Below, piece by piece: positions 6,232 through 33,697 of a stretch of 35,069 bases of DNA. The DNA is taken from contig JAUSKB010000010.1 of assembly GCA_030647415.1 (NCBI GenBank), positions 1 through 35,069 on the forward strand, in the 5' to 3' direction. Under the pieces are notes generated by a model. The model saw only the letters and a program-made list of their open reading frames with translations. It was not told the DNA's origin and ran no database searches. Source of the DNA: a bacterium. Lineage in GTDB: Bacteria > Patescibacteriota > Minisyncoccia > UBA6257 > GWB1-50-10. Numbering within the stretch: position 1 is the stretch's first letter; the number at the start of each line of letters is the position of its first letter. Made by a program: the position numbers and the translations under genes.

Positions 6232-6422
6232 AGGATGCGACACAATGGGGTTCGACAGATTGCCGCATAAGAGCTAAAATTGCTCTGCATGTTCATGTGC
6301 CGGGGATACCCGGATAACACGCGATCATGCGCGCCTTGCAAGGCGCTTCGCGTCCCGATCGCTGACTTCGGTCTGCGGACGGAAACGGCACGAACCCACC
6401 ACGAGTCGCATCCTGGTGGGTT
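6232..6422 (+). ncRNA. Unidentified structured RNA candidate with pseudoknot, abutting the integrase start
   Basis: Many stems are visible: AGAGC/GCTCT (6270-6286), a CCGGG-GATA-CCCGG hairpin with a GNRA-type loop (6300-6313), GCGATC/GATCGC (6321-6326 with 6357-6362) around a 16-base palindrome (6331-6346), GAC-TTCG-GTC (6364-6373) and TGCCG/CGGCA (6261-6265 with 6386-6390). A 9-bp hairpin (6393-6401 with 6414-6422) has a loop, GTCGCATCC, complementary to 6233-6241, giving a pseudoknot. The last hairpin ends 8 bases before the integrase ATG and could sequester its ribosome site. The GGGGTTCGACAG motif recalls tmRNA 5' ends, but no tRNA-like T-arm is found. Confidence 0.5.
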
Positions 6423-6430
6423 TCGTGTAT

Positions 6431-12373: not shown

Positions 12374-13372
12374 TCATTCATTTTTCATATCCTTCCCGCC
12401 ATGGAACTTCTCATGGATGTCCCGGAGCCGTTTGTTGGTGACATGCGTGTAGATCTGCGTCGTTGCGACGTTCTTGTGGCCGAGGAGCTCCTGAACGCTC
12501 CGCAGGTCCGCGCCGCGCGCCAAGAGGTCGGTGGCGTACGTGTGGCGCAGGGCATGCGGCGTAACCTTCTTCGAGAGCCCGGCGCGCATCGCGTACCGCG
12601 ATAGCTGCATCTGGATGTAGCGGGGCGACAGCCGCTTGTCTGCGCCGCTCCGAGACCGCACGTTAGTGAAGAGCGGCTCGGCGGCACCAGCCGCGAATTG
12701 TACGCGGGCGGTGTGGCGCACCGTAAGGTAGGCGCGCACCCACGCGGCGGCATGGGGGGAGATGAACACCGTCCGGGGGTGCCTCCCTTTGCCGATAATC
12801 GGGAGCTCGTAGGTGCGGTCGGGGTCCTTGTCCGTGAGGAACGAAACCTGACCGACGTTCAATGACACGAGTTCCGAGATGCGCATCCCCGACGAGAAGA
12901 ACAGTTCTAGGATGGCGCGGTCGCGCACGCCAGACGGCGTCGTGGTGTCCGGCACCGCGAGCAGGCGCTCCATTTCCTGCATCTCAAGAAATGTGACCGA
13001 GTGCTCTACCCCCTGCTTTGCAAGTTTTATTTTCGAGGAGGGGAGCGCTTCCACGTCACGCTCGGCAAAGAAATCCAGAAGCACTCGCAGTGCGATAAGA
13101 TAGTAGTTCTGGGATTTCTTGGTGAGGCACGTGCCGGATGGGGTCAGGTAGATCCGGGCGAGGTAGAGGCGGTAGTCCCAGATATGGGCCGCGGTGAGCT
13201 CGCGTGGTAGTAGGTCTTTATTCCCGGTGGCAACAAGCCACTTCACGAAGAGCCGCAAGTACTGCCGGTAGTTCTTCTGGGTGTTGCTCGACAGCCCCTT
13301 CTCGACCTCGCAGTAGTCCAGGAAGGGGAGGATGTGCTCGACAATCGGTCTGTCTTTTCCCACGGCTTTCAT
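12374..13372 (-). CDS. xerC/D-like: Xer-like tyrosine recombinase
   Basis: This 332-aa protein is close to XerC/XerD in length. It has the core-binding domain (LDYCEVEKGLSSNTQKNYRQ) and catalytic motifs GMRISELVSL (Arg), IIGKGRHPR (Lys), TPHALRHTYATDLL (H-x-x-R), LGHKNVATTQIYTHV (His and nucleophilic Tyr). Candidate-phyla genomes often have a single Xer that resolves chromosome dimers at dif, so this could be that enzyme. The accessory neighbourhood also allows an integrase of a mobile island. No Shine-Dalgarno is seen; TAGAAT lies 6 bases before the ATG, suggesting a leaderless transcript. Confidence 0.9.
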   Translation of the reverse strand: MKAVGKDRPIVEHILPFLDYCEVEKGLSSNTQKNYRQYLRLFVKWLVATGNKDLLPRELTAAHIWDYRLYLARIYLTPSGTCLTKKSQNYYLIALRVLLDFFAERDVEALPSSKIKLAKQGVEHSVTFLEMQEMERLLAVPDTTTPSGVRDRAILELFFSSGMRISELVSLNVGQVSFLTDKDPDRTYELPIIGKGRHPRTVFISPHAAAWVRAYLTVRHTARVQFAAGAAEPLFTNVRSRSGADKRLSPRYIQMQLSRYAMRAGLSKKVTPHALRHTYATDLLARGADLRSVQELLGHKNVATTQIYTHVTNKRLRDIHEKFHGGKDMKNE

Positions 13373-17210: not shown

Positions 17211-18487
17211 TTCATCGGGTCAAGGTCCCCACCGACCGGCATCGGACCGCAACTTGACGGCTTCGTGCCCTCGGGGTAGCCCGGACGAGCCGCCGTGAGC
17301 GTTTGCGAGGCAAACACGGTGAAGTGGAGGTGGGGCCCGGTCGCATAGCCGGTCCTGCCAACGTACCCGACGACCTCCCCGCGCTCCACGCGGGTGCCAA
17401 CCTTCGCCTGAATCTTCGACAGGTGCCCATAGAGCGTGGTGAGCCCGTTCCCATGCTTCAACTCCACGAACTTGCCGTACGCCGCCTTCCGGCACCCGCG
17501 GTACGCGTCCTGGTCCCCCGCATTGATGACGATGCCGCTTTCGGCGGCGTACACCTCCGTACCGATGGGCGCGCCGAAATCCACGCCGTTGTGCCATTTG
17601 GATTTATAGGCGCGCTCGGCGAACGCGGTGGCGCCGTGTCCCTGCGTCAGCTTCGGATTCGCGACCGGATTAGCAAGCAATCCCCTCCCGACCGTGGGAA
17701 GCGTGTTCGGGTCAATCGTGCGCCGGAGCTCCTCTTCGATTTTGTTGATCTCAATGGAAATTTGGTCCTGGACTTTCTGGAGGTCCATCAGCTGCGCCGC
17801 GTACGCCTGCTCCCGGTTCTTCGTCGCTGTGATGAGCTGCTGTTTTCCCTCGCGTTCGCTCGCGATGATGGTCTTTCGGCTCGCGAGCGTCACCTGCTCC
17901 CGTTCCCGCGCCGTCTGTTTCTTCTCAAGGTTGGTTATCGATGTGGTGAGGTCCTGCTCCGCGACCCGGAGGTCCGAAATCGTCGACATGAGCTTTCCGG
18001 AAAGCACCGTCGCCTGCGCTGCGTCGGACACGCCATCTGAAAACCGTCCATGGCGAAGAAAAATAAGGAGCGGTTGCTCCTGCTCGGCTTCATGCAACCC
18101 GCGGATGAGCGCTCCGAGCGCCTCGCGGTGCGCCGTAACGAGCTCCCGTTGATCTGCAATCGTACCCGTAAGGCCCTCGATCTCATCCGCGAGCTGTGCC
18201 TGCGTCAATTCGTTCTCCTTGATTGCGTAGGTGAGCTCGGTGACGGTACGGTCGATGACCTTCAGGTCGCGCCCGAGTGTCTGCCCCGACTGCGTCAACT
18301 CGTCAATCTCACGCTGTACCGCCTCCTTTTTCGCCTGGATGTCGGCAAGCTCCTTCGCTTTTGCGTCAATACTTCCCTTGAGGTCCACCGGTGTTGGTAT
18401 CGCCGCAGTGACCGCAATCCAACCCGCAAAAAATATTGCCATACAGAGGCCGGCTGATGCGACACGTTCTGTAAATATTCGTCTCAT
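17198..18487 (-). CDS. EnvC-like coiled-coil M23 murein hydrolase or hydrolase activator
   Basis: This 429-aa protein has an N-terminal signal or anchor (about residues 10-30) and a long coiled coil (about 38-255, Glu/Lys/Gln-rich). The C-terminal M23 domain has HNGVDFGAPIG with the first His and Asp (about residue 299), LYGHLSKIQ and GPHLHFTVF (H-x-H). All metal ligands appear present, so it may be an active endopeptidase rather than a degenerate activator. Its ATG overlaps the gltX stop (ATGA), so the two are translationally coupled. Its stop codon lies in a dispersed repeat. It likely acts in septal wall splitting. Confidence 0.9.
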   Translation of the reverse strand: MRRIFTERVASAGLCMAIFFAGWIAVTAAIPTPVDLKGSIDAKAKELADIQAKKEAVQREIDELTQSGQTLGRDLKVIDRTVTELTYAIKENELTQAQLADEIEGLTGTIADQRELVTAHREALGALIRGLHEAEQEQPLLIFLRHGRFSDGVSDAAQATVLSGKLMSTISDLRVAEQDLTTSITNLEKKQTAREREQVTLASRKTIIASEREGKQQLITATKNREQAYAAQLMDLQKVQDQISIEINKIEEELRRTIDPNTLPTVGRGLLANPVANPKLTQGHGATAFAERAYKSKWHNGVDFGAPIGTEVYAAESGIVINAGDQDAYRGCRKAAYGKFVELKHGNGLTTLYGHLSKIQAKVGTRVERGEVVGYVGRTGYATGPHLHFTVFASQTLTAARPGYPEGTKPSSCGPMPVGGDLDPMKYLP

Positions 18488-19896
18488 GCACGTATGCGAT
18501 CGAGCGCGGCGGAAAGCCGGCGTATGGTCTCATCCGCCCCGAACACCTCGGCAAGCTCGCTCGGCCCTGGCGACGCTCCCTGTCCCGACAGCGCCACGCG
18601 GAACGGCCACAACACCTCCCCGCGGCCCCGCGCCGCGATGACCGGTTCCAGGGCCGCATCTACCGCGGCGCGGGTGAAGGCGTTCGGTGAAACGTTTCGG
18701 AGCGCCTCACGGACCGCGGCAAGGTTCTCGCGGATGACGGCGACCGGCGTTTGTTTCCAAACCAAGAGTGCAGGGTCGTACGACGGGAGGGTGAAGTAAA
18801 ATGACGCCCGCTCGGTGAACTCCCCGAGCCGCTTTAGGCGCTCCCGTTCCACCGCGACCACCCGGTAGAGGAATTCGCCATCCGCCTGCCACGCGGGCGG
18901 CGTGAGCGGCATGAGGTGCTCCGTGAGCGCCTCCACCGAGAGCGTCCGGATGTAGACGCCATTCATCCACTCGAGCTTCTTCGGATTGAATACGGCGCCG
19001 CCCTTCTGGACGCGCTCCAACGTGAACTCGCGGACCAGCGCATCAAGGTCGAGGATTTCTTGGTCGTGCACGGGGTGCCAGCCGAGCAGTGCAAGGAAGT
19101 TCCGCATCGCTTCCGGAAGGTACCCCGCGCGGCGGTAATCCATGAGCGACCCGGAGAGGAATCGCTTCGAGAGTTTCTTCCGGTCGGGTCCCAGAATGAG
19201 CGGCAGGTGGGCGTACGCGGGATGTGGTAGGTCGAGCGCCTGGTGGATAGCGAGCTGCTTCGGCGTATTCGAGATGTGGTCCTCGCCGCGGATGACCATG
19301 GAAATGCCGCTCTCGTAGTCATCCACGACGGCGGCAAAGTTGTAGAGCGGGGCGCGAAACCCCTTCGCGATGATGATATCCCCGGTGAGCGCGGCGTCGA
19401 ACGAGACGCGGCCGCGGATGAGGTCGGTGAACGTGAACAAGGCGTCCGGCATACGAAGCCGGATGACGGCCGGGTCGTGGGCGGCGAGCCGCCGGGCCGC
19501 TTCGGCTGGCGCGAGCGTCCGGCACCGACCGACGTACTTCGGCATGAGCCCCTGGGAGAGCTGCGCCGCATAGTCGGCGTCGAGCTCCTCCTTTGTGCAG
19601 AAACAGAAATATGCCCGGTCCGACTCGATGAGCTTCTGCAGGTACCGCTCATAGACCTCGGTCCGCTCGCTCTGCCGGACGATTGGACCGTCCCACGCGA
19701 GCCCCAGCCACTTGAGCCCCTCAAGGATTTCCATCTCGTACCTCGCCTCGGAACGCTCCGTGTCTGTATCCTCGATGCGCAGGAGGAACTCCCCTCCCGT
19801 ATGACGGGCGTAGAGCCAGTTGTAGAGCGCTGTCCGGACGTTCCCAATGCTTATGGGCCCCGTCGGCGAGGGGGCAAAACGGACGCGAATTCCCAT
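18484..19896 (-). CDS. gltX: Glutamyl-tRNA synthetase
   Basis: This 470-aa class I synthetase charges tRNA-Glu. It shows FAPSPTG, the LLRIEDTDTERS motif, NFAAVVDDYESGISMVIRGEDHI, and KLSKR as the KMSKS loop (about residue 242), followed by an anticodon-binding helical domain. The HIGH motif reads SIGN, because the codon for the first residue is AGC, so the usual His is Ser. Length is typical. In genomes with few synthetases it often also charges tRNA-Gln for later amidation. No Shine-Dalgarno is seen; TAGAAT ends 7 bases before the ATG. Confidence 0.95.
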   Translation of the reverse strand: MGIRVRFAPSPTGPISIGNVRTALYNWLYARHTGGEFLLRIEDTDTERSEARYEMEILEGLKWLGLAWDGPIVRQSERTEVYERYLQKLIESDRAYFCFCTKEELDADYAAQLSQGLMPKYVGRCRTLAPAEAARRLAAHDPAVIRLRMPDALFTFTDLIRGRVSFDAALTGDIIIAKGFRAPLYNFAAVVDDYESGISMVIRGEDHISNTPKQLAIHQALDLPHPAYAHLPLILGPDRKKLSKRFLSGSLMDYRRAGYLPEAMRNFLALLGWHPVHDQEILDLDALVREFTLERVQKGGAVFNPKKLEWMNGVYIRTLSVEALTEHLMPLTPPAWQADGEFLYRVVAVERERLKRLGEFTERASFYFTLPSYDPALLVWKQTPVAVIRENLAAVREALRNVSPNAFTRAAVDAALEPVIAARGRGEVLWPFRVALSGQGASPGPSELAEVFGADETIRRLSAALDRIRA

Positions 19897-20080: not shown

Positions 20081-20719
20081 ATGTCAGTGCATGTATATTT
20101 CAAGGAAACCGTGCGTACTTTGCCCGGTTTCACAAGTAAGCCCTATAAGGACGGGTCGGGAAACAGGTTGAGCATCAACGACCTAACTCTGTATGGCAGT
20201 GATGGTCGTTTGCATGCGTCGCTTGGAAGCGAAAACGACGAAATTCCTGAATCGTTGATGGAGTATGTTGTTGGGTTCTCGCTTCATGAAACAGTAGTAA
20301 AAACCGGGACCCGCGAGGCGGGAATTTACAAACATGAAACTGCCGAGGCGGAGGTCGAATTCTCTCAATATGATGCAAGGCGGGAATCGTACATCGTGAA
20401 GATTACTGGCGAGAAGATGGGGGATGTCCGTGAGTTGTTCCACAAAATCAAAGCCGGCTCGGTCCGACCGGACGAGAGTTACGAGGGCGAGCAGCTCGGG
20501 CTCTCCCGCAAGGAACTTGAGGTGGTGCTGGAGCGAGTCACTGCAGAGCTGGAGCAAATTACCGCCCAGCAAGACTCCCTTGCTAAACTTGCGAGGAATG
20601 ATAACGCTCTCCGCGTGTTAGCCCTTGAACTGCGTTCGGGTTTCCCGTTCTGCAAAAAGGAATCCGTCGCAATCAAAATATTGGATATCCTCAATGGCGT
20701 AACAAGAATCCGACTTTGA
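20081..20719 (+). CDS. 212-aa protein of unknown function
   Basis: The ATG at 20081 follows AGGAGGA by 3-4 bases; the frame open upstream (from 20003) has no ribosome site. The first 110 residues look beta-rich and soluble. Residues about 140-180 form a Glu/Leu-rich coiled coil (LSRKELEVVLERVTAELEQ). No signal peptide, membrane segment or catalytic motif is seen. It is monocistronic, with a consensus promoter and its own terminator. Like the other plus-strand genes here it contrasts with the surrounding minus-strand housekeeping genes. Confidence 0.75.
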   Translation: MSVHVYFKETVRTLPGFTSKPYKDGSGNRLSINDLTLYGSDGRLHASLGSENDEIPESLMEYVVGFSLHETVVKTGTREAGIYKHETAEAEVEFSQYDARRESYIVKITGEKMGDVRELFHKIKAGSVRPDESYEGEQLGLSRKELEVVLERVTAELEQITAQQDSLAKLARNDNALRVLALELRSGFPFCKKESVAIKILDILNGVTRIRL

Positions 20720-20757
20720 GATGTCTTGATATTAACCGAGCCTGACCGGATAAACAG

Positions 20758-20792
20758 GCAGCCCAACCAACAAGGTTGGGCTTCTGCTTTTC
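20758..20792 (+). terminator. Terminator of the 212-aa gene
   Basis: GCCCAACC (20761-20768), loop AACAA, GGTTGGGC (20774-20781), then a T-rich tail. Confidence 0.88.
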
Positions 20793-20847: not shown

Positions 20848-20887
20848 CCGTGTCAGGTGGTATGACATGTCATACCACCTGACACGG
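20848..20887. repeat. Perfect 40-bp palindrome sharing a core with 32611-32638
   Basis: Two exact 20-base halves (centre TATGACA/TGTCATA). The inner AGGTGGTATGAC and GTCATACCACCT are identical to the palindrome at 32611-32638. Both lie shortly after a terminator. Confidence 0.9.
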
Positions 20888-20917: not shown

Positions 20918-21013
20918 TCATGAGACTCCCGGGAAGCCCACAAGGCGCAACAATTCCTCTGCAATGACCTCTGCGGCGGCCAGGCGGACGAACGGCTGGA
21001 CCGCGGCGGCGAG
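20918..21013 (-). pseudogene. Displaced 3' end of murG
   Basis: Bases 20943-21013 match 22506-22576 of the intact murG gene with 3 mismatches in 71. In the murG frame it reads QPFVRLAAAEVIAEELLRL and then a different ending, VGFPGVS, with a TGA at 20918. The intact gene ends AKFPS. So this is an alternative murG terminus in the same orientation, 1.56 kb from the working one, and it lacks the rest of the gene. Confidence 0.85.
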
Positions 21014-21090
21014 GGGGCAAATCCCGGACTCGTACCATACGAATTCTATTATACCGCGATTTTCAGCCACTTCTAGCTACGAAAAACAGA

Positions 21091-21119
21091 TTGACAGATT
21101 TTCACATGTGTGCTACAAA
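21091..21119 (+). promoter_or_regulatory. Promoter of the 404-aa membrane-protein gene
   Basis: TTGACA (21091-21096), 17-base spacer, TACAAA (21114-21119), about 50 bases before the start. Confidence 0.65.
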
Positions 21120-21168
21120 TACACTAGCGTTTTCACCTAATTTCAAAAACATAAATAAAGGAGCATTT

Positions 21169-22383
21169 ATGGAACGATCAGTTTTTGCTGACGTCGAGAT
21201 GATTGTTCTCAAAGAGGGCAGGACTCGGCAAAACGCGCTGTCCCAGCGGATTGAAGAGACAGAGACGGCGATTGTGGAGGAGGGGCAGCGCAAACCCAAA
21301 GTGGTCAGGGAAATCACGACGTTCTTTGGCTTCGAGCGCGAAATCGAACGTCAAGCGAGCGTTCCAAGTCGCGTTGCCTCGCTTGCCGTTGAGAAGGAGG
21401 GGTTCAAAAAATCCCTCGATAGCTATTCCATATTCTCGACCGAGCGACTCGCGTTCCTGCAGTCGCTCACCGAGAAGGGAATCCAGCCGATCGCGGTTCT
21501 CCCGCGAGCGCTCTGGAACGAGCTTATGCGAGAGTTTGGGCTCATTCGCTTCGAACACGTCGACAAGGACGGGAAGACGGGCGTGAATCTAGTAGCACCG
21601 GAATTCCTGGTTGCGCTGGTGAGAGCGATTTTGGGTGCTGGATTCGTAACAGGCGTTCTCGCGCTCGTTGCGTCATTCCTCATAGCGATACCCATCACCG
21701 CAGTTTCCCTACTTTTCACTGGAGTCGCCGCGCTCATCCTTTTCGAAGAGTACGCGCAGGTAAGGTTCCGCCTACCCGACGGTCTGGCGTGGTTTACTGC
21801 CTTGTTCGCGAGCGCAGCTACGGTGAGTATTGGTATGAGCCGCAACTGTTCTAATGGTGAGTTAGTTGTGGTGGGCATTGTAGGAGGTTTTGTCCTAATT
21901 CTTCTATCCTATCTCCTGATGACCTTGTTCTTTCTATTTGGAAAAAAACCAGGAGATTACAAGGAGGGGTTTGCACCACAAATAATCGAAGCGGCGTTCC
22001 GCGTGGCGCGATGGAAGATGTTTTCCCTCCGCTCACATGCAAAGCAGGTCCGATTCCTCTGGCCGGACAGCGCCGATACAAACGGCGCCGACAAGGTGAC
22101 GGTCCGATTCCCAAAGGCGCCGAAGGGATTCGTTGACACGCTCGTAAAATTGCAGGAGGGCGGCCAACAACCCATGATCGCGGCAGTGCCGGAAGCCGTC
22201 ATGTTCAATAGTGAGGAGGCGAAGTGCGCGCTTGATGAGCAGACTCACCGACTCTTCGCAGACCCGATTCTTTTCACTGCAGATAAAAAATGGGTCGCAG
22301 TAGTCGCGCAGTTTGGCGACTTCCCGCGTGAGCAGGAAGTCGTGGCATGGGTGAAGCAGAATTTCAATCTCTGCTTCAACTAG
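21169..22383 (+). CDS. 404-aa membrane protein of unknown function
   Basis: The ATG at 21169 has AAAGGAG 7 bases upstream. Residues 1-140 are hydrophilic and helical. Residues about 145-265 hold four hydrophobic segments (LVRAILGAGFVTGVLALVAS; IPITAVSLLFTGVAALILF; WFTALFASAATVSIGM; LVVVGIVGGFVLILLSYLL). The last 130 residues are soluble, with a WPDSAD segment. No family is recognised. It has its own promoter and terminator and is the only gene between the two copies of the murG 3' end, so it looks like cargo of an inserted block. Confidence 0.8.
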   Translation: MERSVFADVEMIVLKEGRTRQNALSQRIEETETAIVEEGQRKPKVVREITTFFGFEREIERQASVPSRVASLAVEKEGFKKSLDSYSIFSTERLAFLQSLTEKGIQPIAVLPRALWNELMREFGLIRFEHVDKDGKTGVNLVAPEFLVALVRAILGAGFVTGVLALVASFLIAIPITAVSLLFTGVAALILFEEYAQVRFRLPDGLAWFTALFASAATVSIGMSRNCSNGELVVVGIVGGFVLILLSYLLMTLFFLFGKKPGDYKEGFAPQIIEAAFRVARWKMFSLRSHAKQVRFLWPDSADTNGADKVTVRFPKAPKGFVDTLVKLQEGGQQPMIAAVPEAVMFNSEEAKCALDEQTHRLFADPILFTADKKWVAVVAQFGDFPREQEVVAWVKQNFNLCFN

Positions 22384-22390
22384 AACAGAA

Positions 22391-22419
22391 CGCCTCGCAA
22401 GATTGCGGGGCGTTTTTTT
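22391..22419 (+). terminator. Terminator of the 404-aa gene
   Basis: CGCCTCGCAA pairs with TTGCGGGGCG (one G-T pair), followed by seven T. Confidence 0.9.
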
Positions 22420-22423
22420 GTTC

Positions 22424-22487
22424 AATCTCACGACGTGGCACGTCGTGAGATTTTCTAAAATGTTCGATTTCGTAAATCGAACATTTT
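22424..22487. repeat. Two tandem 14-bp hairpins at the murG 3' end
   Basis: AATCTCACGACGTG-G-CACGTCGTGAGATT (22424-22452) and AAAATGTTCGATTT-CGT-AAATCGAACATTTT (22457-22487). The second overlaps the murG stop codon by one base. They may terminate murG transcription, but there is no long T-tract on the minus strand. Confidence 0.85.
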
Positions 22488-23629
22488 TAGCTCGGGAACT
22501 TCGCGAGGCGCAACAATTCCTCTGCAATGACCTCTGCGGCGGCCGGACGAACGAACGGCTGGACCGCGGCGGCGACGTCAGCAGGCCGCTGTCCGATAGC
22601 GATGAGGCGCAGGAGCTCCTCGCGCACGATGTGCCCCGTCAGATTCCCCTCCTCCACCACGGTGGCCGCCCCGGTCTCCGCGTAGGCGTAGGCATTGCGC
22701 CGCTGATGGTCACCGGCAGACCCGGAAAGCGGCACGAGGAGCACCGGCCGTGCGAAGAGCGCACATTCGGTGATAGTGCTCGACCCGGCCCGCGAGAACA
22801 CCACGTCCGCCGCGGCGAGTGCGCGCCGCATCTCGCCCACATCGAGAAACCCCGCCGTTCGGTACCGATGGTGCAGTGCCGCCGGGAGCTGGTCCAGAAA
22901 CGTTGGGGCGCTATTTTCCACCTCCGCACTATTCGCCGGTCCGGTCTGGTGGTAAATCTGGAATGCGGGAAGAAGCGCCGCGAGGTTTTCGAGAATAAAC
23001 GTGTTTAGCCGGACCGCACCCTGCGAACCGCCGAGCACAAGGACGAGCGGCACGTCCGGGTCGAACCCGAGGGCTCGCTTCGCGCCGCCCGAGGTCTCAC
23101 GTTCGGCACGCAGGCCTGACCGGACCGGCGTGCCGACCAGCGCGGTTCGCTCGCTCGGGAAGTAGCGTGCGGAAAACGGGAAGGTGATGCCGATACGGGC
23201 GGCGAACGGCGCGGAAAGCCGGTTGGTGAGCCCCGGCACCGCATCCGATTCATGGATCATGACCGGGATACGGTAGAAGCGGGCGGCAAGGACCACCGGC
23301 AATGCTCCGGGCCCCCCTTTCGAAAAGACCGCGTCCGGCATGACCGCGTAAAACACCACGAGCGCCTGAAGGAGACCAAGGATGAATTTCGGGATGTCCA
23401 CCAGATTCTGGAGCGAGAAATAGCGCCGAAATTTGCTCCCGAGTATCAGATGCACGTCAATCTTACGGGCGCGAAACTCATCCACGCCGAGGCCGGGGGG
23501 GGCGATGTACGCGAGTCGCACCGCACCGCCCGAACGCCGGGCGAGCTCGTCCGCGACCGCAAGGAGCGGGTAGAGGTGTCCCCCGCTCCCGCCCCCAGCC
23601 AACGCAATGATGATTGGTTCCCGTCGCAT
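22487..23629 (-). CDS. murG: UDP-GlcNAc:undecaprenyl-PP-MurNAc-pentapeptide GlcNAc transferase
   Basis: This 380-aa GT28 enzyme turns lipid I into lipid II at the inner face of the membrane. It begins MRREPIIIALAGGGSGGHLYP with the donor/acceptor-loop GGGSGGH. It has DAVFSKGGPGALPVVLAA and IPVMIHESDAVPGLTNR, LVLGGSQGA at the start of the C-terminal domain, and SRAGSSTITECALFARPVLLVPL with the UDP-binding region. The start at 23629 lies 10 bases after the ftsW stop; a longer frame would overlap ftsW. Its 3' end is duplicated at 20918-21013. Confidence 0.96.
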   Translation of the reverse strand: MRREPIIIALAGGGSGGHLYPLLAVADELARRSGGAVRLAYIAPPGLGVDEFRARKIDVHLILGSKFRRYFSLQNLVDIPKFILGLLQALVVFYAVMPDAVFSKGGPGALPVVLAARFYRIPVMIHESDAVPGLTNRLSAPFAARIGITFPFSARYFPSERTALVGTPVRSGLRAERETSGGAKRALGFDPDVPLVLVLGGSQGAVRLNTFILENLAALLPAFQIYHQTGPANSAEVENSAPTFLDQLPAALHHRYRTAGFLDVGEMRRALAAADVVFSRAGSSTITECALFARPVLLVPLSGSAGDHQRRNAYAYAETGAATVVEEGNLTGHIVREELLRLIAIGQRPADVAAAVQPFVRPAAAEVIAEELLRLAKFPS

Positions 23630-26278: not shown

Positions 26279-26313
26279 AGTTTTTAGTTGTTGGTCGTTG
26301 GTTGTCGGTTACC

Positions 26314-27360
26314 CTAGACATACCGTGCGAGAAAGAAGACGACGAGCCCGATGATACTCACGACCGCGGCGATGATCCAAAACCGCATGGTGATCTGGCT
26401 CTCCGGCCACCCAAGCGCTTCGAAGTGATGGTGGATGGGGCTCGAGTGGAACACCTTTTTTCCCCGGACCTTCTTCGAGATGAGCTGTACAATGACCGAC
26501 GCCGTTTCAATGACGAGGATGAACCCGAAGAACGGCAATAAAAGCGCCGTGTTCGTGAGCATCGCCACGACGCCGAGCGTGATGCCAAGCGACATGGAGC
26601 CCGTATCACCCATGAAGAACCGCGCGGGGTGGATGTTGAACCACAAAAAGGCGAGGAGCGCCCCGAGTATCACGGCGATCATTACGGCAAGGTCGTACCG
26701 CCCGAGGACGAACGCCACCACCGCGAGTGCGCCGAATGCGAAGAAGAGGACCCCGGCCGCAAGCCCGTCCAGCCCATCCGTGAGATTTGTCGCATTCGAA
26801 GTTGCGACCAACACAAAGATGAAAACCGGGATGTACCAGATGCCCATCTGGATGTAGCCCACGAACGGCACGAAGAGCGTGTCCCAGCCGAGCTTCACAT
26901 AGAACCACCAGGCGCCGATAGCCGCGATGCTGGTGTACAGCACGAGCTTATGCCGAACGGTGAGACCGCCACCCTTCGGACCGCGCCCCATGATACCCCA
27001 CAAATCATCTACGAGCCCGACGAGCGCCGCGAGGAGGAGCGCCGCGAGCGGCAGGTAGGTCTCCGCGCGGTTCACAAAGTTGAAGTACGAGGCGAAACCA
27101 TCGAATATGAGCGAGCCAGTCCAAAAGACCGCAGCGAGACCGATTACGGTCGCCCAGATGATAATACCGCCCATCGTCGGCGTCGCACTCTTGTCCTTAT
27201 GGAACTGATGGAAGACAGGCGTGGTCGTCGCATCCCGAATGTTCCGCTTTCGCAGGTTCCACCGGATGAGCGCGCGATAGACGAGTGGTGTGACAAGGAG
27301 CGCCACCACGAACCCAAGCGCGAACATGATAAGTACCCGAAGTGCGGCGAATAGTTCCAT
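26314..27360 (-). CDS. mraY: Phospho-N-acetylmuramoyl-pentapeptide transferase
   Basis: This 348-aa polytopic enzyme makes lipid I from UDP-MurNAc-pentapeptide and undecaprenyl phosphate. Signatures are HKDKSATPTMGGI, ALVGLVDDLWGI with the Asp pair, ATNLTDGLDGLAAG, WFNIHPARFFMGDTGSMSLG and SSPIHHHFEALGWPE. About ten transmembrane segments and full length. TAGAAT lies 12 bases before the ATG. The 35-base gap to the deacylase holds a G/T-rich repeat, but the two are probably cotranscribed. Confidence 0.97.
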   Translation of the reverse strand: MELFAALRVLIMFALGFVVALLVTPLVYRALIRWNLRKRNIRDATTTPVFHQFHKDKSATPTMGGIIIWATVIGLAAVFWTGSLIFDGFASYFNFVNRAETYLPLAALLLAALVGLVDDLWGIMGRGPKGGGLTVRHKLVLYTSIAAIGAWWFYVKLGWDTLFVPFVGYIQMGIWYIPVFIFVLVATSNATNLTDGLDGLAAGVLFFAFGALAVVAFVLGRYDLAVMIAVILGALLAFLWFNIHPARFFMGDTGSMSLGITLGVVAMLTNTALLLPFFGFILVIETASVIVQLISKKVRGKKVFHSSPIHHHFEALGWPESQITMRFWIIAAVVSIIGLVVFFLARYV

Positions 27361-27376
27361 GGTTACTGGTAAATTC

Positions 27377-27527
27377 TAAACCCTAAAAAGGAATCTCTGT
27401 TTGTCCGCCGAAGGCGGATCCGCCTCTGGCGGAGAATTTAGGATTTCGGTATTGTCCCGACTTTGTCGAGGATGCCCGATAAAATCGGCATTTAGAATTT
27501 AGTATTTAGAGTTTAGGGTTTTGCTGG
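27377..27527. repeat. Composite inverted repeat between mraY and dacA
   Basis: AAACCCTAAA (27377-27386) pairs with TTTAGGGTTT near 27518-27527. Between them lie TCCGCC-GAA-GGCGGA and TCCGCC-TCT-GGCGGA hairpins back to back (27408-27437) and CCGAT-AAA-ATCGG. The right arm encodes the last codons and the TAA of the dacA-like gene. Confidence 0.65.
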
Positions 27528-28469
27528 AAATTCATATGCCTCGTCGACCCAGTGCATCAAACCCTGTACCTCATCATAGCGGTTTTTGCTCCCCAGGAGC
27601 ACGACGACGATCCGGTCGGTGCCATGCGAGAGGATTGCGAGCAGGTTCTCCCCCGCGGCGGGGGAGGTGCCGGTTTTGCCGCCGAGAAACGTTGCCGACA
27701 ACGCAAGCGAATTGATGTTCGAGACCGTCCGGGTCGTGCCTCCGTTCAAGGGTTGGACCAAAATGCTCGTGAGCCGGCTCCACGCGAAGATGTCCGGATG
27801 CTGTGCGGCGATGTACGCTGCGAGTTTCACCAAGTCGCCTGCCGTGGACCGGTTCTCGTCCGACAGGCCCGAGCCGTCATGCACGGATGTCTGCGCCATC
27901 CCGAGTTCCAAAATCTTCGCGCGCATGAGACCACGGAACACCTCCTGTCCGCCGGCATACTCCTCGAATGCCGCGGCCGCATCGTTCGAGGAGGTCATGA
28001 GCATGACCTTCAGGAGATCGCGGGCGGTGTAGATCTCACCACTCGAAAGCTCACCTGCCTCCCCTTCCGTCTGGACCGCGATAAGACCGACCGGCACCTT
28101 CTTGTCGGGACCGAACTGTTCCAGCACCACGACGGCGGTGAGGAGCTTCGTGAGCGAGGCGATCGGTCGGGACTCGTAGGTACGATAGTTCAAGAACGAG
28201 AACGGCGTACCGATGAGCTGCGCAGTGGCTGCTGCGGCTCCGACCGTCGGGTCCAGCACGCTCCACCGGCGTTTTGGCATCCCGTCGGTTTCTGCCAGTC
28301 GGTTTTTGTCCCTCGCTTCTACTCGGGATGAATCATCGGTCGTCAGTTGTCGGTTATTAACTTGTCTGGCCGCCTCCTGCGTTTCCGCACGAGGCGCGAA
28401 CGCCTTCGAGGCCAGGACGGAGGCAAGTATGATCACGAGGAGTAGAAGCGCTTGCAAACGAAAGTTCAT
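27513..28469 (-). CDS. dacA-like: D-alanyl-D-alanine carboxypeptidase, S11 family
   Basis: This 318-aa penicillin-binding protein trims the terminal D-Ala of stem peptides. It has an N-terminal signal or anchor (LLLLVIILASVLASKAF) and then a Gln/Asn/Thr-Arg-rich spacer (residues about 36-62) derived from dispersed repeats. The catalytic motifs are SLTK (S-x-x-K), SSN (S-x-N) and GKTGTS (K-T-G). The ATG overlaps the scpB stop (ATGA). There is no obvious C-terminal amphipathic anchor, unlike many DacA proteins. The final residues PAKP and the stop are supplied by a repeat. Confidence 0.92.
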   Translation of the reverse strand: MNFRLQALLLLVIILASVLASKAFAPRAETQEAARQVNNRQLTTDDSSRVEARDKNRLAETDGMPKRRWSVLDPTVGAAAATAQLIGTPFSFLNYRTYESRPIASLTKLLTAVVVLEQFGPDKKVPVGLIAVQTEGEAGELSSGEIYTARDLLKVMLMTSSNDAAAAFEEYAGGQEVFRGLMRAKILELGMAQTSVHDGSGLSDENRSTAGDLVKLAAYIAAQHPDIFAWSRLTSILVQPLNGGTTRTVSNINSLALSATFLGGKTGTSPAAGENLLAILSHGTDRIVVVLLGSKNRYDEVQGLMHWVDEAYEFPAKP

Positions 28470-29392
28470 GGCGTGAGCGGTGTTACTTCGTTTGTCCCTC
28501 GACTTTGCTCGGGACGGTTCGAGGGACGGTGAGCTTGTCGAACCGTTGTTTGTTTGTCGGTTGTCTCCTGTTGTCGGTCGTCTGTCACTTGTCGTTGGTC
28601 TTCATTCGTCTCCTGTTGTTGGTTGTCCCTCGGCTCCGCTCGGGCCGTTCGAGGCTCTGAGGAGCCCTCAGGCTCTCGAAGAGATGGTGAGCGTGTCGAA
28701 CCATTCGTTGTTGGTTGTGGGTTACTGGTTGTTGGTTGTTCGTTCAGTGCTGTCAACTTCGCCCGATAGGCGGCATATTCTGGAAGGTCCGCACCGCGAG
28801 CAAGCCCGAGATGCCGGAGGAAGCGCGCGGTCGTCCGGTATGCGTAGAGGTTTCCACGGCTCGCCTCAGGGTCACGTTCCACGAGACCGCGGACGACGAG
28901 GTTCCGGAGGGTGAAGCTTGAATTCACGCCGCGGATGTAGTCAACAGTCGAACGCGGCACGGGACCGAGGTAGGCAACGAGCGTCACGACCTCAAGACCC
29001 GCGGGTGAAAGCTCCGCGCGAAACTCATCTTGGATAAGCGCCTGTGCAATATGCTGACAGGTGGGCTTCGTGACCAACTGAACACTCGAACCACCTGTGG
29101 TGAGCGGCGTCGAACCATGCCGAAGTATGGTCAACCCCTGCCCCAAGTCGGCGTTCAATGCCCGCTCGAGCTCATCAACGGCAGTGCCGCACGCACTCGG
29201 CTCGATGCCGAGGAGCTTGGCGGCCCGTCCCACCGCGATAGGTTCGCCGTATTGGAAGAGCAGCGCTTCAAGCTGCGCCGAGATGGGCGCTGTGTCTGTT
29301 GGTATTTTTTGCTCTTGGTCCATGTGTGTCTCAGTCGCTTCTGTTTCTACGTTGTTTGTTGTTGGTTGTTTGTCGTTTGTTGACTTACTCAT
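28466..29392 (-). CDS. scpB: Segregation and condensation protein B, with repeat-derived tails
   Basis: This 308-aa protein is the winged-helix partner of ScpA in the SMC condensin. The core (residues about 35-215) has LEALLFQYGEPIAVGRAAKLL, the SPAGLEVVTLVAYLGPVPRSTVDYIRGVNSS segment (seen in parts), LVVRGLVER and YRTTARFLRHLGL. The start at 29392 overlaps the scpA stop (ATGA). The first 25 and last 90 residues are low-complexity (Gln/Asn/Thr/Arg/Glu) and come from dispersed DNA repeats; normal ScpB is about 180-200 aa. Confidence 0.92.
   Translation of the reverse strand: MSKSTNDKQPTTNNVETEATETHMDQEQKIPTDTAPISAQLEALLFQYGEPIAVGRAAKLLGIEPSACGTAVDELERALNADLGQGLTILRHGSTPLTTGGSSVQLVTKPTCQHIAQALIQDEFRAELSPAGLEVVTLVAYLGPVPRSTVDYIRGVNSSFTLRNLVVRGLVERDPEASRGNLYAYRTTARFLRHLGLARGADLPEYAAYRAKLTALNEQPTTSNPQPTTNGSTRSPSLREPEGSSEPRTARAEPRDNQQQETNEDQRQVTDDRQQETTDKQTTVRQAHRPSNRPEQSRGTNEVTPLTP
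28500..28760. repeat. G/T-rich and GTCGAA-type repeats forming the scpB 3' tail
   Basis: On the plus strand the segment is built from GTTGTTGGTTGT-like units and CCCTCGACTTTGCTCGGGAC-like units. On the coding strand these read as NQQQET, RQVTDDRQQETTDKQ and RPEQSRG peptides. Similar units occur at 26281-26310, 28331-28360, 29350-29385, 32950-32990 and 33850-33895. Confidence 0.75.
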
Positions 29393-30225
29393 TGTACGGG
29401 CGGTGGGGTGAGCTTCGCAATCGGCCCGTGGTGAGCCCGTCGAACCCACATATCCCCGAAGTGCCTCCCCTGTTCAACATTAACAAGTTGCTCCTTCACA
29501 AGGTGCAATACCGCAAGGAATAGCGCGACCAACTCGCTCCGTTTCGCTTGCAATGAGCCTGCCTGCCCTGAGCTTGTCGAATGGGTTGAATCAGTCGAAA
29601 GACTCGAAAAGCTCATCGAGGTACTCGCGGTGAGGCGTATGAGCACTTCTTCAATCTTCTGCTTCAGATTCGCGAATTCCATCCGAATCGCCGCCGTTGG
29701 TCTCGAGAGGCGTTCCAGCTCGCCGAGCATCCGGGCAAGCGCGCTTTCCATCGCCTGCGGCGTCACGGCGGGCGGCGGGTAGAAGCCGACATTCACCGTT
29801 TGGAGGAACTCGCGCGCGAACATGACCGGCATCGGGTTCCAGAGCCGCTTCAGGTGCCGCTGCGCGCCCCTAAGTTCCTGGTAGAGCGCGAGACGCGTCT
29901 CGAGGTCCTGCATCTCCTCTGCTTCCTCGGGCGTCACCGCGAGCGAGGGTAGGAGCGCCTTCGATTTGATGAGGATGAGCTTCGAGGCGACGACGAGGAA
30001 GTCGGCGATGAGCTGTGGGTCGACGCCGCCCCGAGGCGAGACCTCGGGGGATTCTGAGGTCTCGCCTCGGGGCAATCCCTCAAGCTCCCGAACATACTCA
30101 AGGAAATCGCCGGTGACCTTCGCGATACTTATCTGCGTCACGGGTAGCTGTTCGCGCTCGATGAGCTCGAGCAGTTTCTCGAGCGGTCCCTGATAAGAAT
30201 CGAGTTGTAGGGTGAATTTATTCAT
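29389..30225 (-). CDS. scpA: Segregation and condensation protein A, with insertions
   Basis: This 278-aa kleisin bridges SMC heads. It starts MNKFTLQLDSYQGPLEKLLELIE and has QISIAKVTGDFLEYV, LIADFLVVASKLILIKSKALLP, and a C-terminal winged-helix (ELVALFLAVLHLVKEQLVNVEQ). Two non-family stretches interrupt it. One is LPRGETSESPEVSPRGG at about residue 52, between the first two conserved blocks, from a 44-base palindrome. The other is THSTSSGQAGSLQAK near residue 220, from a GTCGAA-type repeat. Both keep the frame. It is coupled to scpB by ATGA. Confidence 0.92.
   Translation of the reverse strand: MNKFTLQLDSYQGPLEKLLELIEREQLPVTQISIAKVTGDFLEYVRELEGLPRGETSESPEVSPRGGVDPQLIADFLVVASKLILIKSKALLPSLAVTPEEAEEMQDLETRLALYQELRGAQRHLKRLWNPMPVMFAREFLQTVNVGFYPPPAVTPQAMESALARMLGELERLSRPTAAIRMEFANLKQKIEEVLIRLTASTSMSFSSLSTDSTHSTSSGQAGSLQAKRSELVALFLAVLHLVKEQLVNVEQGRHFGDMWVRRAHHGPIAKLTPPPVQ
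30029..30072. repeat. Palindromic insertion in scpA, same family as 16942-16980
   Basis: CCCCGAGGCGAGACCTC (30029-30045) and GAGGTCTCGCCTCGGGG (30056-30072), 17 perfect pairs and a 10-base loop. It encodes RGETSESPEVSPRG in frame. Confidence 0.88.
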
Positions 30226-30234
30226 GACGCGAGG

Positions 30235-30282
30235 ACTTACGAAGTCCCGACATTCTGCATGCGAAGTCTGGACTTCGTAAGT
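30235..30282. repeat. Inverted repeat upstream of scpA
   Basis: ACTTACGAAGTCC (30235-30247) and GGACTTCGTAAGT (30270-30282), 13 perfect pairs, 22-base loop, between the scpA start and the ychF stop. It could act as a ychF terminator or a scpA leader hairpin. Confidence 0.7.
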
Positions 30283-30293
30283 TCAGCTATATA

Positions 30294-31442
30294 TCAGCCA
30301 TGCCGAATGACCATCACGTCGCCGTCCTGTACGACGTAGTCCTTGCCCTCGAGCCGCATCTTCCCCCTCTGTTTGGCGTGACTCCATCCACCGGTGGCGA
30401 TGAGATCTGCGTACGCGACCACCTCCGCGCGGATGAACTTCTCCTCGAAGTCCGTGTGGATGACGCCCGCCGCCTGCGGCGCCTTCGCGCCGTGTTCGAT
30501 GGTCCAGGCGCGCGTCTCGTCCTCGCCGGTGGTGAAAAAACTCACCAGTCCCAGTGTCGCATATGCCGCCGTGATGAGCTCGTTCACATTCGGCGCAGTG
30601 GCAAGGTTCGCAATAACAACTCCTGTACCTATCGCGGACGGCGAGCGGGGCATTTTCGACGGCAGATCTCGGACCGCGACGGCGGGAGAGCCAGGGCGAC
30701 CCGAGAGTACCTCGGGGACGCCCGGTGCCGAAGAAAATGCTCCGTTCACCGTCCCTATAACGCCGATTTGCCGGAGAAGCTCGTCCGGCACATCGCCCGT
30801 ATCGCCATTTAAGAGATACAGCCGCGGCTTCGCGGTCAACAGGTTCAACTCGCGCATGATGCGCGCATGCAAGTCGATGCCAGGTGGCAGAGCTCCGTTT
30901 GCATCCATCAGGAACTCACCGCGATCCAGGACCGCCTTGCACGCCTGGAGCGCTGCAAGGTCGGCGGTTCCCTCCTTCGTCTTATTTCGCACGTCCGCCT
31001 CCGCCTTCGAGATTCGCTTGTCCACCGTCTCGAGGTCTTTCAGCGCCAGCTCGGTCTTCAGTATCTCGTAGTCTCGCACCGGGTCCACCGACCCCTCGAC
31101 GTGCACGATGTCCGCTTGCGGGAAACACCGGAGCACGAAGCAGACCGCGCTCACGTCGCGGATGTGCGAGAGGAACTGGTTACCCAGCCCCTCGCCCTTG
31201 CTCGCCCCCTTTACGAGGCCCGCGATATCATAGAACTCGACCACCGCGGGCACCCGCTTCTTGGAGCTCGAGAGCTTCGCGAGCGCGTCCACGCGCTCGT
31301 CCGGTACGGGAACCACACCCACGTTCGGGTCGATGGTCGCGAACGGGTAGTTCGCAATATGCACCTCCTGGCTCGTGATGAGCTTAAAAAGGGTTGACTT
31401 CCCGACGTTCGGGAGCCCGACGATGCCGATGGATAGCTTCAT
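30294..31442 (-). CDS. ychF: Obg-family GTPase/ATPase YchF
   Basis: This 382-aa protein is the ribosome-associated P-loop NTPase YchF/OLA1. It has GIVGLPNVGKSTLF (Walker A), PFATIDPNVGVVPVPD, VEFYDIAGLVKGAS, a coiled-coil middle, and the C-terminal TGS-like domain with FFTTGEDETRAW, AAGVIHTDFEEKFIRAEV and DYVVQDGDVMVIRH. The region around residues 235-275 (PGVPEVLSGRPGSPAVAVRDLPSK, seen in parts) does not look like the family and contains a GC-rich imperfect palindrome (30694-30723), probably another insertion. The start codon overlaps the end of the 103-bp element upstream and has no normal Shine-Dalgarno. Confidence 0.95.
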   Translation of the reverse strand: MKLSIGIVGLPNVGKSTLFKLITSQEVHIANYPFATIDPNVGVVPVPDERVDALAKLSSSKKRVPAVVEFYDIAGLVKGASKGEGLGNQFLSHIRDVSAVCFVLRCFPQADIVHVEGSVDPVRDYEILKTELALKDLETVDKRISKAEADVRNKTKEGTADLAALQACKAVLDRGEFLMDANGALPPGIDLHARIMRELNLLTAKPRLYLLNGDTGDVPDELLRQIGVIGTVNGAFSSAPGVPEVLSGRPGSPAVAVRDLPSKMPRSPSAIGTGVVIANLATAPNVNELITAAYATLGLVSFFTTGEDETRAWTIEHGAKAPQAAGVIHTDFEEKFIRAEVVAYADLIATGGWSHAKQRGKMRLEGKDYVVQDGDVMVIRHG

Positions 31443-31543
31443 CCTGTTAGAGTTTTACACGCAATCTTTATACATGCAAAAATTTGTCGCTACATGAACA
31501 AAAGTCATAAGAAATCCGTCTATCTGTAAAACTCTAACAGGAT
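31441..31543. mobile_element. 103-bp inverted-repeat element, copy 1
   Basis: ATCCTGTTAGAGTTTTACA (31441-31459) and its exact complement (31525-31543) enclose 65 bases. The left end overlaps the ychF ATG. It shares ACATGC at interior position 13 with copy 2. No target-site duplication is evident. It has no coding capacity. Confidence 0.88.
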
Positions 31544-31660
31544 AAATGTGAATTTGATTTGATCAGCCAGTTGGCGGAGAAACTACAAAATTCAGTACCC
31601 CGCCACCGGCGGGGTCGAATGTGCCGACCGCCACTGGTGTAGATAGTTGAAAAAAATAGC

Positions 31661-31689
31661 TTGACTACAGGTTGAAAACGATGTATATA
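31661..31689 (+). promoter_or_regulatory. Promoter of the small membrane protein / YdcF-like operon
   Basis: TTGACT (31661-31666), 17-base spacer, TATATA (31684-31689). A CCCCGCC-ACC-GGCGGGG hairpin (31598-31614) lies upstream. Confidence 0.7.
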
Positions 31690-31740
31690 GCAGGTAGCTA
31701 ACTAACATCCTAATCATAGCGAAAAGAAAGGAGATTTGCG

Positions 31741-31953
31741 ATGATTTCACGATTTCTATGGTGGTGGTTCACCGGGGAAAAAAATTGGAGCTCCTGGGCA
31801 ACATTCCGCAGTTGGATGACCTCCGGAATTGTCGTCCTGATAATAGCCGCTTTCCTTGAGCTCAACGAACCAAGGTTGCTCACTGCTATGTTCGGAACCA
31901 TTATGGTACGAGTAGTCTTTACTATATTTTTTCCTTACAGAAAGGGGTGTTGA
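31741..31953 (+). CDS. Small two-span membrane protein
   Basis: This 70-aa protein has AAAGGAG 7 bases before the ATG. It opens with a Trp-rich stretch (MISRFLWWWFTGEKNWSSW) and has two hydrophobic segments (IVVLIIAAFLEL and AMFGTIMVRVVFTIFF). Its stop is directly followed by the TTG start of the YdcF-like gene, so the two are coupled. Family not recognised. Confidence 0.65.
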   Translation: MISRFLWWWFTGEKNWSSWATFRSWMTSGIVVLIIAAFLELNEPRLLTAMFGTIMVRVVFTIFFPYRKGC

Positions 31954-32535
31954 TTGAAACTGGCTGAGTGGTTCGAGCGGAACATCGTCATCGACGACGA
32001 CCCGCTCACGGGGACGTACGATGCAGTCATTGGTGTTGGTATTGATACGACACCTGACGGAAGAGAGCCCAGCCCGCACTCGGAGGCCGTTGCTTGGAAA
32101 TGCCGGGAACTCTTTTTCTCCGGTAGCGCTCGGCAGATACTCTTCGTCGGCGGGTACCACACGCCGGGAGGGCTCGCCGAGTCGGTAACCATGGGGCAGT
32201 TCCTTTCTGGCATAACACCCAGGAACCTCATAGAGGGGCGCCTCCTGCTTGAAACGCTGAGCGACCGGACCTACCGGAATGCGGATGCCACACGACGCAT
32301 CGCGACAGACAAGCGGTGGCGTCGGGTTATCGTCGTGTCGCAGCAGGTCTGCGCGAGACACACCAAGGCGATCTTCCGAAAGCGGCTCGCGGGAAGCGGC
32401 ATCGAGGTCGCGGTGGTGAAAGCGCAGTCACCGTACACGCAGAACTGCTCCCAGTGGCATCTCCGGAGCTTCTGGCGCTTCCTCATGTGGGATACCGTAA
32501 GTTTCCTCGTGGGGAAACTTAAGGGCTGGAACTAG
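31954..32535 (+). CDS. YdcF-like DUF218 protein
   Basis: This 193-aa protein matches the DUF218 fold. It has AVIGVGIDTTPDGR at the first strand, ARQILFVGGYHTPGG, LLETLSDRTYRNADATRR (the 'S..T.eNa' helix) and RVIVVSQQVCARHTKAIFRK. DUF218 proteins act in envelope functions such as vancomycin-sensitivity or polysaccharide transport; the chemistry is not settled. No membrane anchor of its own, but the small two-span protein upstream may provide one. The TTG start is supported by AAGGGG about 7 bases upstream. Confidence 0.8.
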   Translation: MKLAEWFERNIVIDDDPLTGTYDAVIGVGIDTTPDGREPSPHSEAVAWKCRELFFSGSARQILFVGGYHTPGGLAESVTMGQFLSGITPRNLIEGRLLLETLSDRTYRNADATRRIATDKRWRRVIVVSQQVCARHTKAIFRKRLAGSGIEVAVVKAQSPYTQNCSQWHLRSFWRFLMWDTVSFLVGKLKGWN

Positions 32536-32545
32536 TATCAACATC

Positions 32546-32576
32546 AAACGCTCCGATCCGAATCGGAGCGTTTTTG
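32546..32576 (+). terminator. Terminator of the YdcF-like operon
   Basis: AAACGCTCCGAT, loop CCGA, ATCGGAGCGTTT, then further T. Confidence 0.92.
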
Positions 32577-32610
32577 CATCCCGAAATTAATACCGGCCAG
32601 CTGTCTTGTC

Positions 32611-32638
32611 AAGGTGGTATGACACGTCATACCACCTT
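32611..32638. repeat. 28-bp palindrome of the GGTGGTATGAC family
   Basis: AAGGTGGTATGAC-AC-GTCATACCACCTT. The inner part is the same as in the palindrome at 20848-20887. Confidence 0.88.
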
Positions 32639-32701
32639 TTGGAAACAAGAAATCGCACAATCTTGCATATTCGAGTTTCACTCCATTTTCATTTTTCTTT
32701 T

Positions 32702-32804
32702 ACCCTGTTAGAGTTTTACAAAACTATTATTTACATGCGTTCGACTGGTATTGCATGCTACCCGTTATTAAAATAGTGGCGTGCGTGTAAAACTCTAACA
32801 GGGT
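32702..32804. mobile_element. 103-bp inverted-repeat element, copy 2
   Basis: ACCCTGTTAGAGTTTTACA (32702-32720) and its exact complement (32786-32804) enclose 65 bases unlike copy 3. The right end provides the TAG stop and last codons of the glycosylase gene. Confidence 0.88.
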
Positions 32805-33394
32805 GAATCTTTTTTCTTCCCTTCTTCCTTCAGTCGGAACCGCCACTTGCGCCGAGACCAGTAGGACCCGGCGTAGGCAATGCCGATGCGCGCTGAGCAC
32901 TTGATGTGCGATTTTAGGATCCGTATGCCGCGGTCCTCGATCCACAGTCCCGTTGCTCTTGTTGCTTGTTTGTTGTTGAATTGTTTGTTTATCTTGAAAT
33001 ACCTCGTCACCCGCGCCGGACCATCAATGTTCCGCATAGTTCCGCGTCTCAATCCGCACTCATCCGCATGAATTGTCACGCCACGAATAAGTATTGCCGC
33101 CGGGTACCTCGCCTCCCGAGTCACGATATTCAACATCCAGTGCATGCCATAGGTGAAGTAGACGTACCAAATGCCCGGCGGGCCGAACATCGGCGCGTTC
33201 CGTGGCGTCTGTCCGCGTGACGCATGTGAGCCCCTGTCGCTGGGCCCGTCGTACGCCTCCACCTCGGTGATTATCGCCGCGACAATCCTGCGTCCGGCGT
33301 ACCGCACGAGATATTTCCCCAGCAGGTCCCGCGCCACCATGAGTGTTGAGCGGTTGAAAAAGGGCGGTTTCAAGGGCGGTTTCAAGATTGACAT
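32795..33394 (-). CDS. mpg: 3-methyladenine DNA glycosylase (AAG/Mpg family)
   Basis: This 199-aa base-excision repair enzyme removes alkylated purines. It shows LARDLLGKYLV-like start (VARDLLGKYLVRY), IITEVEAYDGPSDRGSHASRG with the catalytic Glu, RNAPMFGPPGIWYVYFTYGMHWMLNIV (seen in parts), ILIRG, IDGPARVTRYF and a C-terminal WRF. Residues about 133-146 (INKQFNNKQATRAT) interrupt the family sequence and come from a simple repeat. The C-terminus DSPC and stop are encoded by the end of a 103-bp element. CPR bacteria often keep this enzyme. Confidence 0.93.
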   Translation of the reverse strand: MSILKPPLKPPFFNRSTLMVARDLLGKYLVRYAGRRIVAAIITEVEAYDGPSDRGSHASRGQTPRNAPMFGPPGIWYVYFTYGMHWMLNIVTREARYPAAILIRGVTIHADECGLRRGTMRNIDGPARVTRYFKINKQFNNKQATRATGLWIEDRGIRILKSHIKCSARIGIAYAGSYWSRRKWRFRLKEEGKKKDSPC

Positions 33395-33451
33395 AGATTT
33401 CTTATGGAGGGTGCACTTCCATCAGTCCCACAAACAAACACAGGAGGTTCT

Positions 33452-33661
33452 ATGGGTGCTGCAAGTGTAATAATGCCGATTATCGAAATCGAGGGAGTAC
33501 GGTATGAAGTTGATATCGTATTCAAAGGAAGTGAACTTGTAACCGACTGTAAGAAAAGGAAGGAAAAACATCGGTTCGGTTACTACAAACTTGGGAAGGG
33601 TGGCCTAACAACGGGCCCCATCAACAACGACGATATTCTTGTGATGGTGAAAAAAAATTAG
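33452..33661 (+). CDS. 69-aa protein of unknown function
   Basis: AGGAGG lies 4-5 bases before the ATG at 33452, which fixes the start downstream of the longer frame. The product has beta-rich, basic sequence (IIEIEGVRYEVDIVFKG; KKRKEKHRFGYYKLGKGG). No family recognised. A terminator follows directly. Confidence 0.65.
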   Translation: MGAASVIMPIIEIEGVRYEVDIVFKGSELVTDCKKRKEKHRFGYYKLGKGGLTTGPINNDDILVMVKKN

Positions 33662-33668
33662 TGAAGGA

Positions 33669-33695
33669 AGAGAGCCGCCTAGGTTCTCTTTTTAT
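33669..33695 (+). terminator. Terminator after the 69-aa gene
   Basis: AGAGAGCC pairs with GGTTCTCT (one G-T), loop GCCTA, then TTTTT. Confidence 0.8.
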
Positions 33696-33697
33696 TT

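Follow-up and report, generated by a model that had tools for sequence, protein, structure and literature searches.

A repeated murG 3' end beside a gltX-start relic points to recombination between two alleles of a variable murG-gltX junction

Introduction

How did a second murG 3' end come to lie beyond the intact gene, in the same orientation but with another tail, and with an unrelated gene between the two copies? Genomic islands integrate in the 3' ends of genes by means of tyrosine recombinases, and the DNA next to the att repeat is then that of the element itself. The initial annotation of the window (the whole 35,069-nt stretch of DNA analysed here) read the locus in this manner, as an inserted block of 1.5 kb that restores the end of murG and might owe its mobility to an integrase acting in trans, Xer-like or of phage type, that is encoded nearby. 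It overlooked the start of gltX at the inner edge of the copy, a second orphan gene on the copy's other side (gene B) and the full extent of the additional DNA (features are given in Table 1).

Table 1. Coordinates of the features at and around the murG-gltX junction of the window
Feature	Position	Strand	Basis or remark
gltX, intact, usual downstream neighbour of murG	18484..19896	-	Pfam tRNA-synt_1c, 1.2e-89
Passenger gene B, 212 aa, orphan	20081..20719	+	no family above cut-off; terminator hairpin ~20757-20790
Perfect 40-bp palindrome, dispersed repeat	20848..20887		7 genome copies of its 24-bp core
murG 3'-end relic with the other tail (VGFPGVS-TGA)	20918..21012	-	sequence comparison with murG
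Seam, 6-nt overlap TCGCCG common to the gltX start and murG	21007..21012		reading of three sequences
gltX-start relic	21007..21065	-	17.5 bits (E 1.5e-4) with a profile from the gltX starts of 20 relatives
Passenger gene A, 404 aa, membrane-protein-like, orphan	21169..22383	+	no family match; terminator ~22387-22419
Two hairpins, perfect or nearly so, that recur dispersed in the genome	22424..22487		fold z -5.6 and -6.2
murG, intact, ends ...LRLAKFPS-TAA	22487..23629	-	Pfam Glyco_transf_28 and Glyco_tran_28_C above cut-off; start codon uncertain, frame open to 23662
murG 3' end, copy within murG	22493..22575	-	75/83 identical to 20930-21012

The repeated end of murG

The direct repeat (20943-21012 versus 22506-22575) comprises two copies in the same orientation, 1,563 bp apart, which are identical at 67 of 70 positions and share a longest exact run of 39 nt; drawn out to 20930/22493, it keeps 75/83 identical positions. 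A BLAST comparison of the murG-gltX gap with the window's own murG gives E = 2.3e-28. The repeat had been described as 71 bp long with three mismatches, which holds except for its last counted base, 21013, where the copies already differ. The relic stays in the murG frame and terminates as ...LRLVGFPGVS-TGA with its stop codon at 20918-20920, which bears out the different but intact ending reported for it, and murG proper ends at 22487. Besides replacement sites, three silent third-codon differences (GTT/GTC, CGT/CGC, CTC/CTT) were counted by eye between relic and gene; these few sites would fit an allele that has diverged as a gene.

The gltX-start relic and the seam

On the inner side, the murG copy passes over TCGCCG into gltX sequence, namely the promoter and the first codons. 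On the murG strand, this region contains TATAAT (21053-21048) and an ATG at 21038, followed by GTACGAGTCCG-gg-ATTTGCCCCCTCGCCG, which encodes V-R-V-R-F-A-P-S-P with a 2-nt frame shift; the gltX start of many relatives likewise consists of TATAAT, a few bases, ATG and the codons for V-R-V-R-F-A-P-S-P. A DNA profile built from the gltX starts of 20 relatives, with the window's sequence left out, has only two clear matches in the 35-kb window, which are the relic and, at 28.8 bits (E 4e-8), the true gltX start; the third-best place has E 8.4. As the relic scores 17.5 bits and the best off-target match in 431,529 bases of relatives' loci only 9.2 bits, it is identified as a gltX start that carries a 2-nt frame shift. 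When the relic is aligned pairwise, as DNA, to the gltX start of the window itself, the result is borderline: 1 in 5000 shuffles is equally good, and the relic is the best place in the window, yet only by 25 versus 24; it was the profile of relatives' starts that decided the matter. The relic differs from gltX at about 4 of 26 aligned positions (by eye) plus the 2-nt indel, compared with 3/70 between murG relic and murG, all of these being small numbers. The two relics share the coding strand of murG and gltX, and the gltX start precedes the murG end.

The DNA adjoining the repeat is thus the start of a host gene and not that of an element, which contradicts the proposed integration in the 3' end with restoration of murG.

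It might be supposed that contigs of two strains, or of the chromosome and a small circle, were merged by the assembler at the 39-nt exact run shared by the two murG tails, the more so as the genome is in 38 contigs. The gltX-start::murG-end seam, however, rests on 6 nt, which should be too short for an assembler to create, so that the seam must exist in some molecule, and we hold an assembly artefact to be very unlikely.

The murG-gltX junction in relatives

Besides the window's own genome, 53 relatives had a murG match, and the comparison covers the murG loci of 40 of them, with the window proteins mapped onto the murG neighbourhoods. The nearest relatives compared come from the same family, though from other genera, and their MurG is about 44-51% identical. 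In 36 of the 40 loci gltX is the next gene after murG on the same strand, and these 36 form the gap count; L073, L086 and L087, whose stretches contain no gltX, and L088, where gltX lies on the other side, were set aside. The gltX start of L078 was extrapolated from residue 116, and the start profile matches nearby.

The junction is empty in 21 of these 36 relatives (gap 13-127 bp) and loaded in 15 (gap 316-4,623 bp), mostly with unrelated orphan genes. Relatives with an empty murG site, which the initial annotation had suggested looking for, therefore exist, and because of them the window's extra DNA is accepted as an insertion, though not as one of 1.5 kb, since the whole murG-gltX gap of 2,590 bp is extra relative to the empty relatives. 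Gaps longer than 300 bp are found between ftsW and murG in 1/35 loci and between gltX and the next gene (LM23b, a label of this analysis for a peptidase-like gene of the window) in 2/30, versus 15/36 for murG-gltX (Fisher p 1e-4 and 1.5e-3, respectively, with related genomes treated as independent). The mraY-ftsW pair was dropped as a control, as it is measurable in 7 loci only and in most of those 7 another gene seemingly lies between the two.

Two genera are polymorphic at the junction, namely g12 (L048 empty, L050 and L071 loaded) and g22 (L055 empty, L053 loaded). Among the 15 loaded gaps and that of the window, similar coding sequence occurs in a single pair, L050/L071, from one genus. 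Eight passenger proteins were picked from the relatives' gaps, seven of which have no Pfam family above cut-off, while the eighth is a radical SAM/SPASM protein encoded in the longest gap. This gap (4,623 bp; locus L079 of genome G017) carries a large load, with several other open frames beside the radical SAM/SPASM gene. The differing contents and the mixed genera mark the junction as a variable spot, of which the window's gap is a loaded case. Among the papers listed in a literature search that included the Parcubacteria and the Candidate Phyla Radiation, none concerned it. The variability of the murG|gltX junction is newly noticed, and loads are frequent there in the host's family.

None of the other 15 loaded junctions contains a murG repeat, a gltX relic or such a seam, so that the pattern did not recur at these other murG loci, and the spot cannot be an att site at which every insertion produces this signature. 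This bears on the proposal that gene A is a small site-specific element, inserted in the murG 3' end with restoration of that end, and that a tyrosine recombinase from nearby acts on it in trans. The direct repeat of 70 bp with its restored gene end, the two tyrosine recombinases that the window encodes at 6416-7549 and 12374-13372, and the empty sites of relatives would agree with it, but its simple form is already refuted by the gltX relic, which makes the inner flank host DNA. The passenger genes, moreover, vary from genome to genome, the locus of gene A's only clear homologue has no match to any other window protein, and no positive evidence links either tyrosine recombinase to the block, which leaves such an element highly improbable. 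The locus resembles genomic islands of gene 3' ends in its direct repeat with an intact alternative ending, and differs from them in that the block has no recombinase (its sole gene is without a family match, in agreement with the initial annotation), that its inner flank is the next host gene and that the other loaded junctions share no constant att. A plausible mobile-element reading is hereby corrected: where the end of a gene is repeated and the second copy has a different, intact tail, no att site need be involved, and the other side of such a repeat should be checked for the start of the neighbouring gene.

The passenger genes and their spacers

The protein of gene A has three hydrophobic segments above the Kyte-Doolittle threshold, and a T-tailed terminator hairpin follows the gene on its 3' side, which agrees with its earlier description as a membrane-protein gene with its own terminator. 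Neither gene A nor gene B is assigned to a family in Pfam, NCBIfam, PADLOC or PHROG (no match for A, none above cut-off for B). Among 198 other genomes, gene A has one clear, distant homologue (25%, E 8e-19), which is situated at another place in G017, and none was confirmed in genome_contigs or viral_contigs. Gene B has two clear homologues, with identities of 46% and 37%, each in a genome from a different family than the host's, besides two weaker partial matches; the loci of the two clear homologues showed no match to any other protein of the window. Single-sequence structure models of the two passenger proteins (mean pLDDT 45 and 39) are too poor for use. The G+C content is lower in both spacers (about 0.48-0.56) than in the flanking genes (about 0.58-0.67). 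The passengers lie between two essential genes, murG and gltX, of a small-genome bacterium, and our best guess is that they are accessory cargo, uninvolved in the rearrangement itself.

In transcriptional order, the locus consists of murG, a spacer with gene A, the gltX-start::murG-end scrap, a spacer with gene B, and gltX. Since gltX directly follows murG in relatives, this order is best read as two stacked murG-x-gltX junctions, that is, two loaded versions of one variable junction arranged end to end and head-to-tail. Diverged copies of one another were considered for the passengers and spacers and rejected, the best DNA match between them being 10 nt at full identity and the proteins being unrelated. 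The units are not mutual copies, as their likeness is confined to the ends, and the absence of common DNA in the spacers therefore speaks against a simple duplication. In a less simple form, a tandem duplication within one lineage would cover everything between and including the end of murG and the start of gltX, be joined at the 6-nt overlap and later have one passenger replaced or inserted. It would dispense with a second strain, and the order of the parts also fits a duplication joint with microhomology; because the spacers share no sequence, however, at least one further gain and loss would be needed, while the murG-side relics are still 67/70 alike. We regard this course of events as unlikely.

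Origin of the stacked arrangement

The best explanation, to which we give a probability of roughly 0.7, is that the alleles of two strains recombined, with homology at one end and a microhomology joint at the other. Different strains would load murG|gltX with different orphan genes, one strain carrying murG-geneA-gltX and the other murG-geneB-gltX. A fragment of one would have entered the other, probably via DNA uptake, and undergone homologous recombination at or near murG on one side, while its opposite end, which lay within the gltX start of the donor, would have been joined through TCGCCG to the 3' end of the recipient's murG. The product would possess one intact murG, one intact gltX, both passengers in a stack and the gltX-start::murG-end scrap at the seam. 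Two routes would yield this same product. One is homology-facilitated illegitimate recombination; in the other, a fragment is first closed into a circle at the overlap and then integrates by a single crossover. What the sequences show directly is how the parts are ordered, what the two relics are, the 6-nt overlap, and the empty and loaded junctions of relatives, whereas the two donor strains, the uptake of DNA and the succession of events are inferred.

The order of the relics, gltX start followed by murG end, is that expected for a head-to-tail joint of two murG-x-gltX segments, and the unrelated spacers and proteins are those expected for two differently loaded alleles, unlike in a plain duplication. 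The murG gene is a conserved anchor and may have provided the homology between donor and recipient. ComEC, DprA and RecA family matches above cut-off are present in the genome, and the host may be naturally competent. Several points stand against the recombination of two alleles: the gltX relic is more diverged from gltX than the murG relic is from murG, a difference for which the model does not account, there is a short duplication instead of a visible loss, with murG and gltX both intact, and the 15 other loaded junctions are free of such seams. Nor was any allele with a single cargo found, the nearest MurG being about 51% identical, and scans of genome_contigs with MurG and gene A gave no confirmed match.

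Homology-facilitated illegitimate recombination is known from Streptococcus pneumoniae, Acinetobacter baylyi and Pseudomonas stutzeri, and according to PMC3240628, most illegitimate joints have an overlap of 3-10 bp, DNA of about the size of the insert is usually, though not obligatorily, deleted, and circularised linear DNA can enter by a single crossover. The window agrees with the events described there in having a joint at an overlap of a few bases, with the 6 nt of TCGCCG falling in the stated range, and foreign DNA at a conserved anchor gene, and its other side would be the homologous one; unlike the usual events, it shows a short duplication in place of a deletion of similar size, and it is known from sequence alone. 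Campbell-type integration, as outlined in the same source (PMC3240628), would give the identical arrangement if a murG-geneA-gltX fragment had been closed at the overlap, and the two routes cannot be separated from the product alone. A mechanism of the same kind is proposed for the stacked orphan immunity genes in the T6SS clusters of Vibrio cholerae (PMC5361080). As in those clusters, successive additions next to a conserved anchor would shift the earlier genes further downstream together with displaced 3' ends, whereas the scrap here derives from two housekeeping genes and the passengers are orphans, in contrast to the effector 3' ends and immunity genes of V. cholerae.

The seam thus points to an ordinary recombination scar of a known kind, unusually legible, and to a faulty exchange between strains rather than a mobile element. 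It is conceivable, if rather doubtful, that in the host's family the murG|gltX end of the cell-wall cluster serves as a recombinase-free loading dock, comparable to an integron without an integrase, where orphan genes would be swapped by homologous exchange through the two conserved flanks and mis-joined exchanges would stack them, the seam being a direct trace of this process. With 15/36 relatives loaded, the junction offers a concrete place to study gene gain without recombinases in very small genomes.

Hairpins and dispersed repeats

The two hairpins noted initially between the copies are confirmed; they lie next to murG, with further copies on contigs C9, C15, C19, C20, C32 and C34. The hairpin adjoining murG can, judging from its predicted fold, act as the murG terminator. 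Hairpins were considered as element ends and rejected, because they recur at scattered places of the genome and, for each of the two passengers, are situated on the side towards murG; they therefore do not mark the limits of the block. The palindrome at 20848-20887 is perhaps no terminator, since no T-run follows it, and may instead be a binding site or belong to a repeat family. Its core, GGTGGTATGACNNGTCATACCACC, occurs seven times in the genome (20848-20887 and 32607-32637 in the window; contigs C7, C9, C25 and C32 of G000), and 1-4 copies are present in 3 of 58 relatives, with none in the backwards-read control.

Other features of the window

A 311-aa secreted-looking protein is encoded at 9745-10680, and its C-terminus looks like a type IX secretion sorting domain, which is unexpected in such a genome. 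At 26281-33898, a repeat resembling TTGTTTGTCGTTGG is present in twelve partial copies, scattered in and between the genes.
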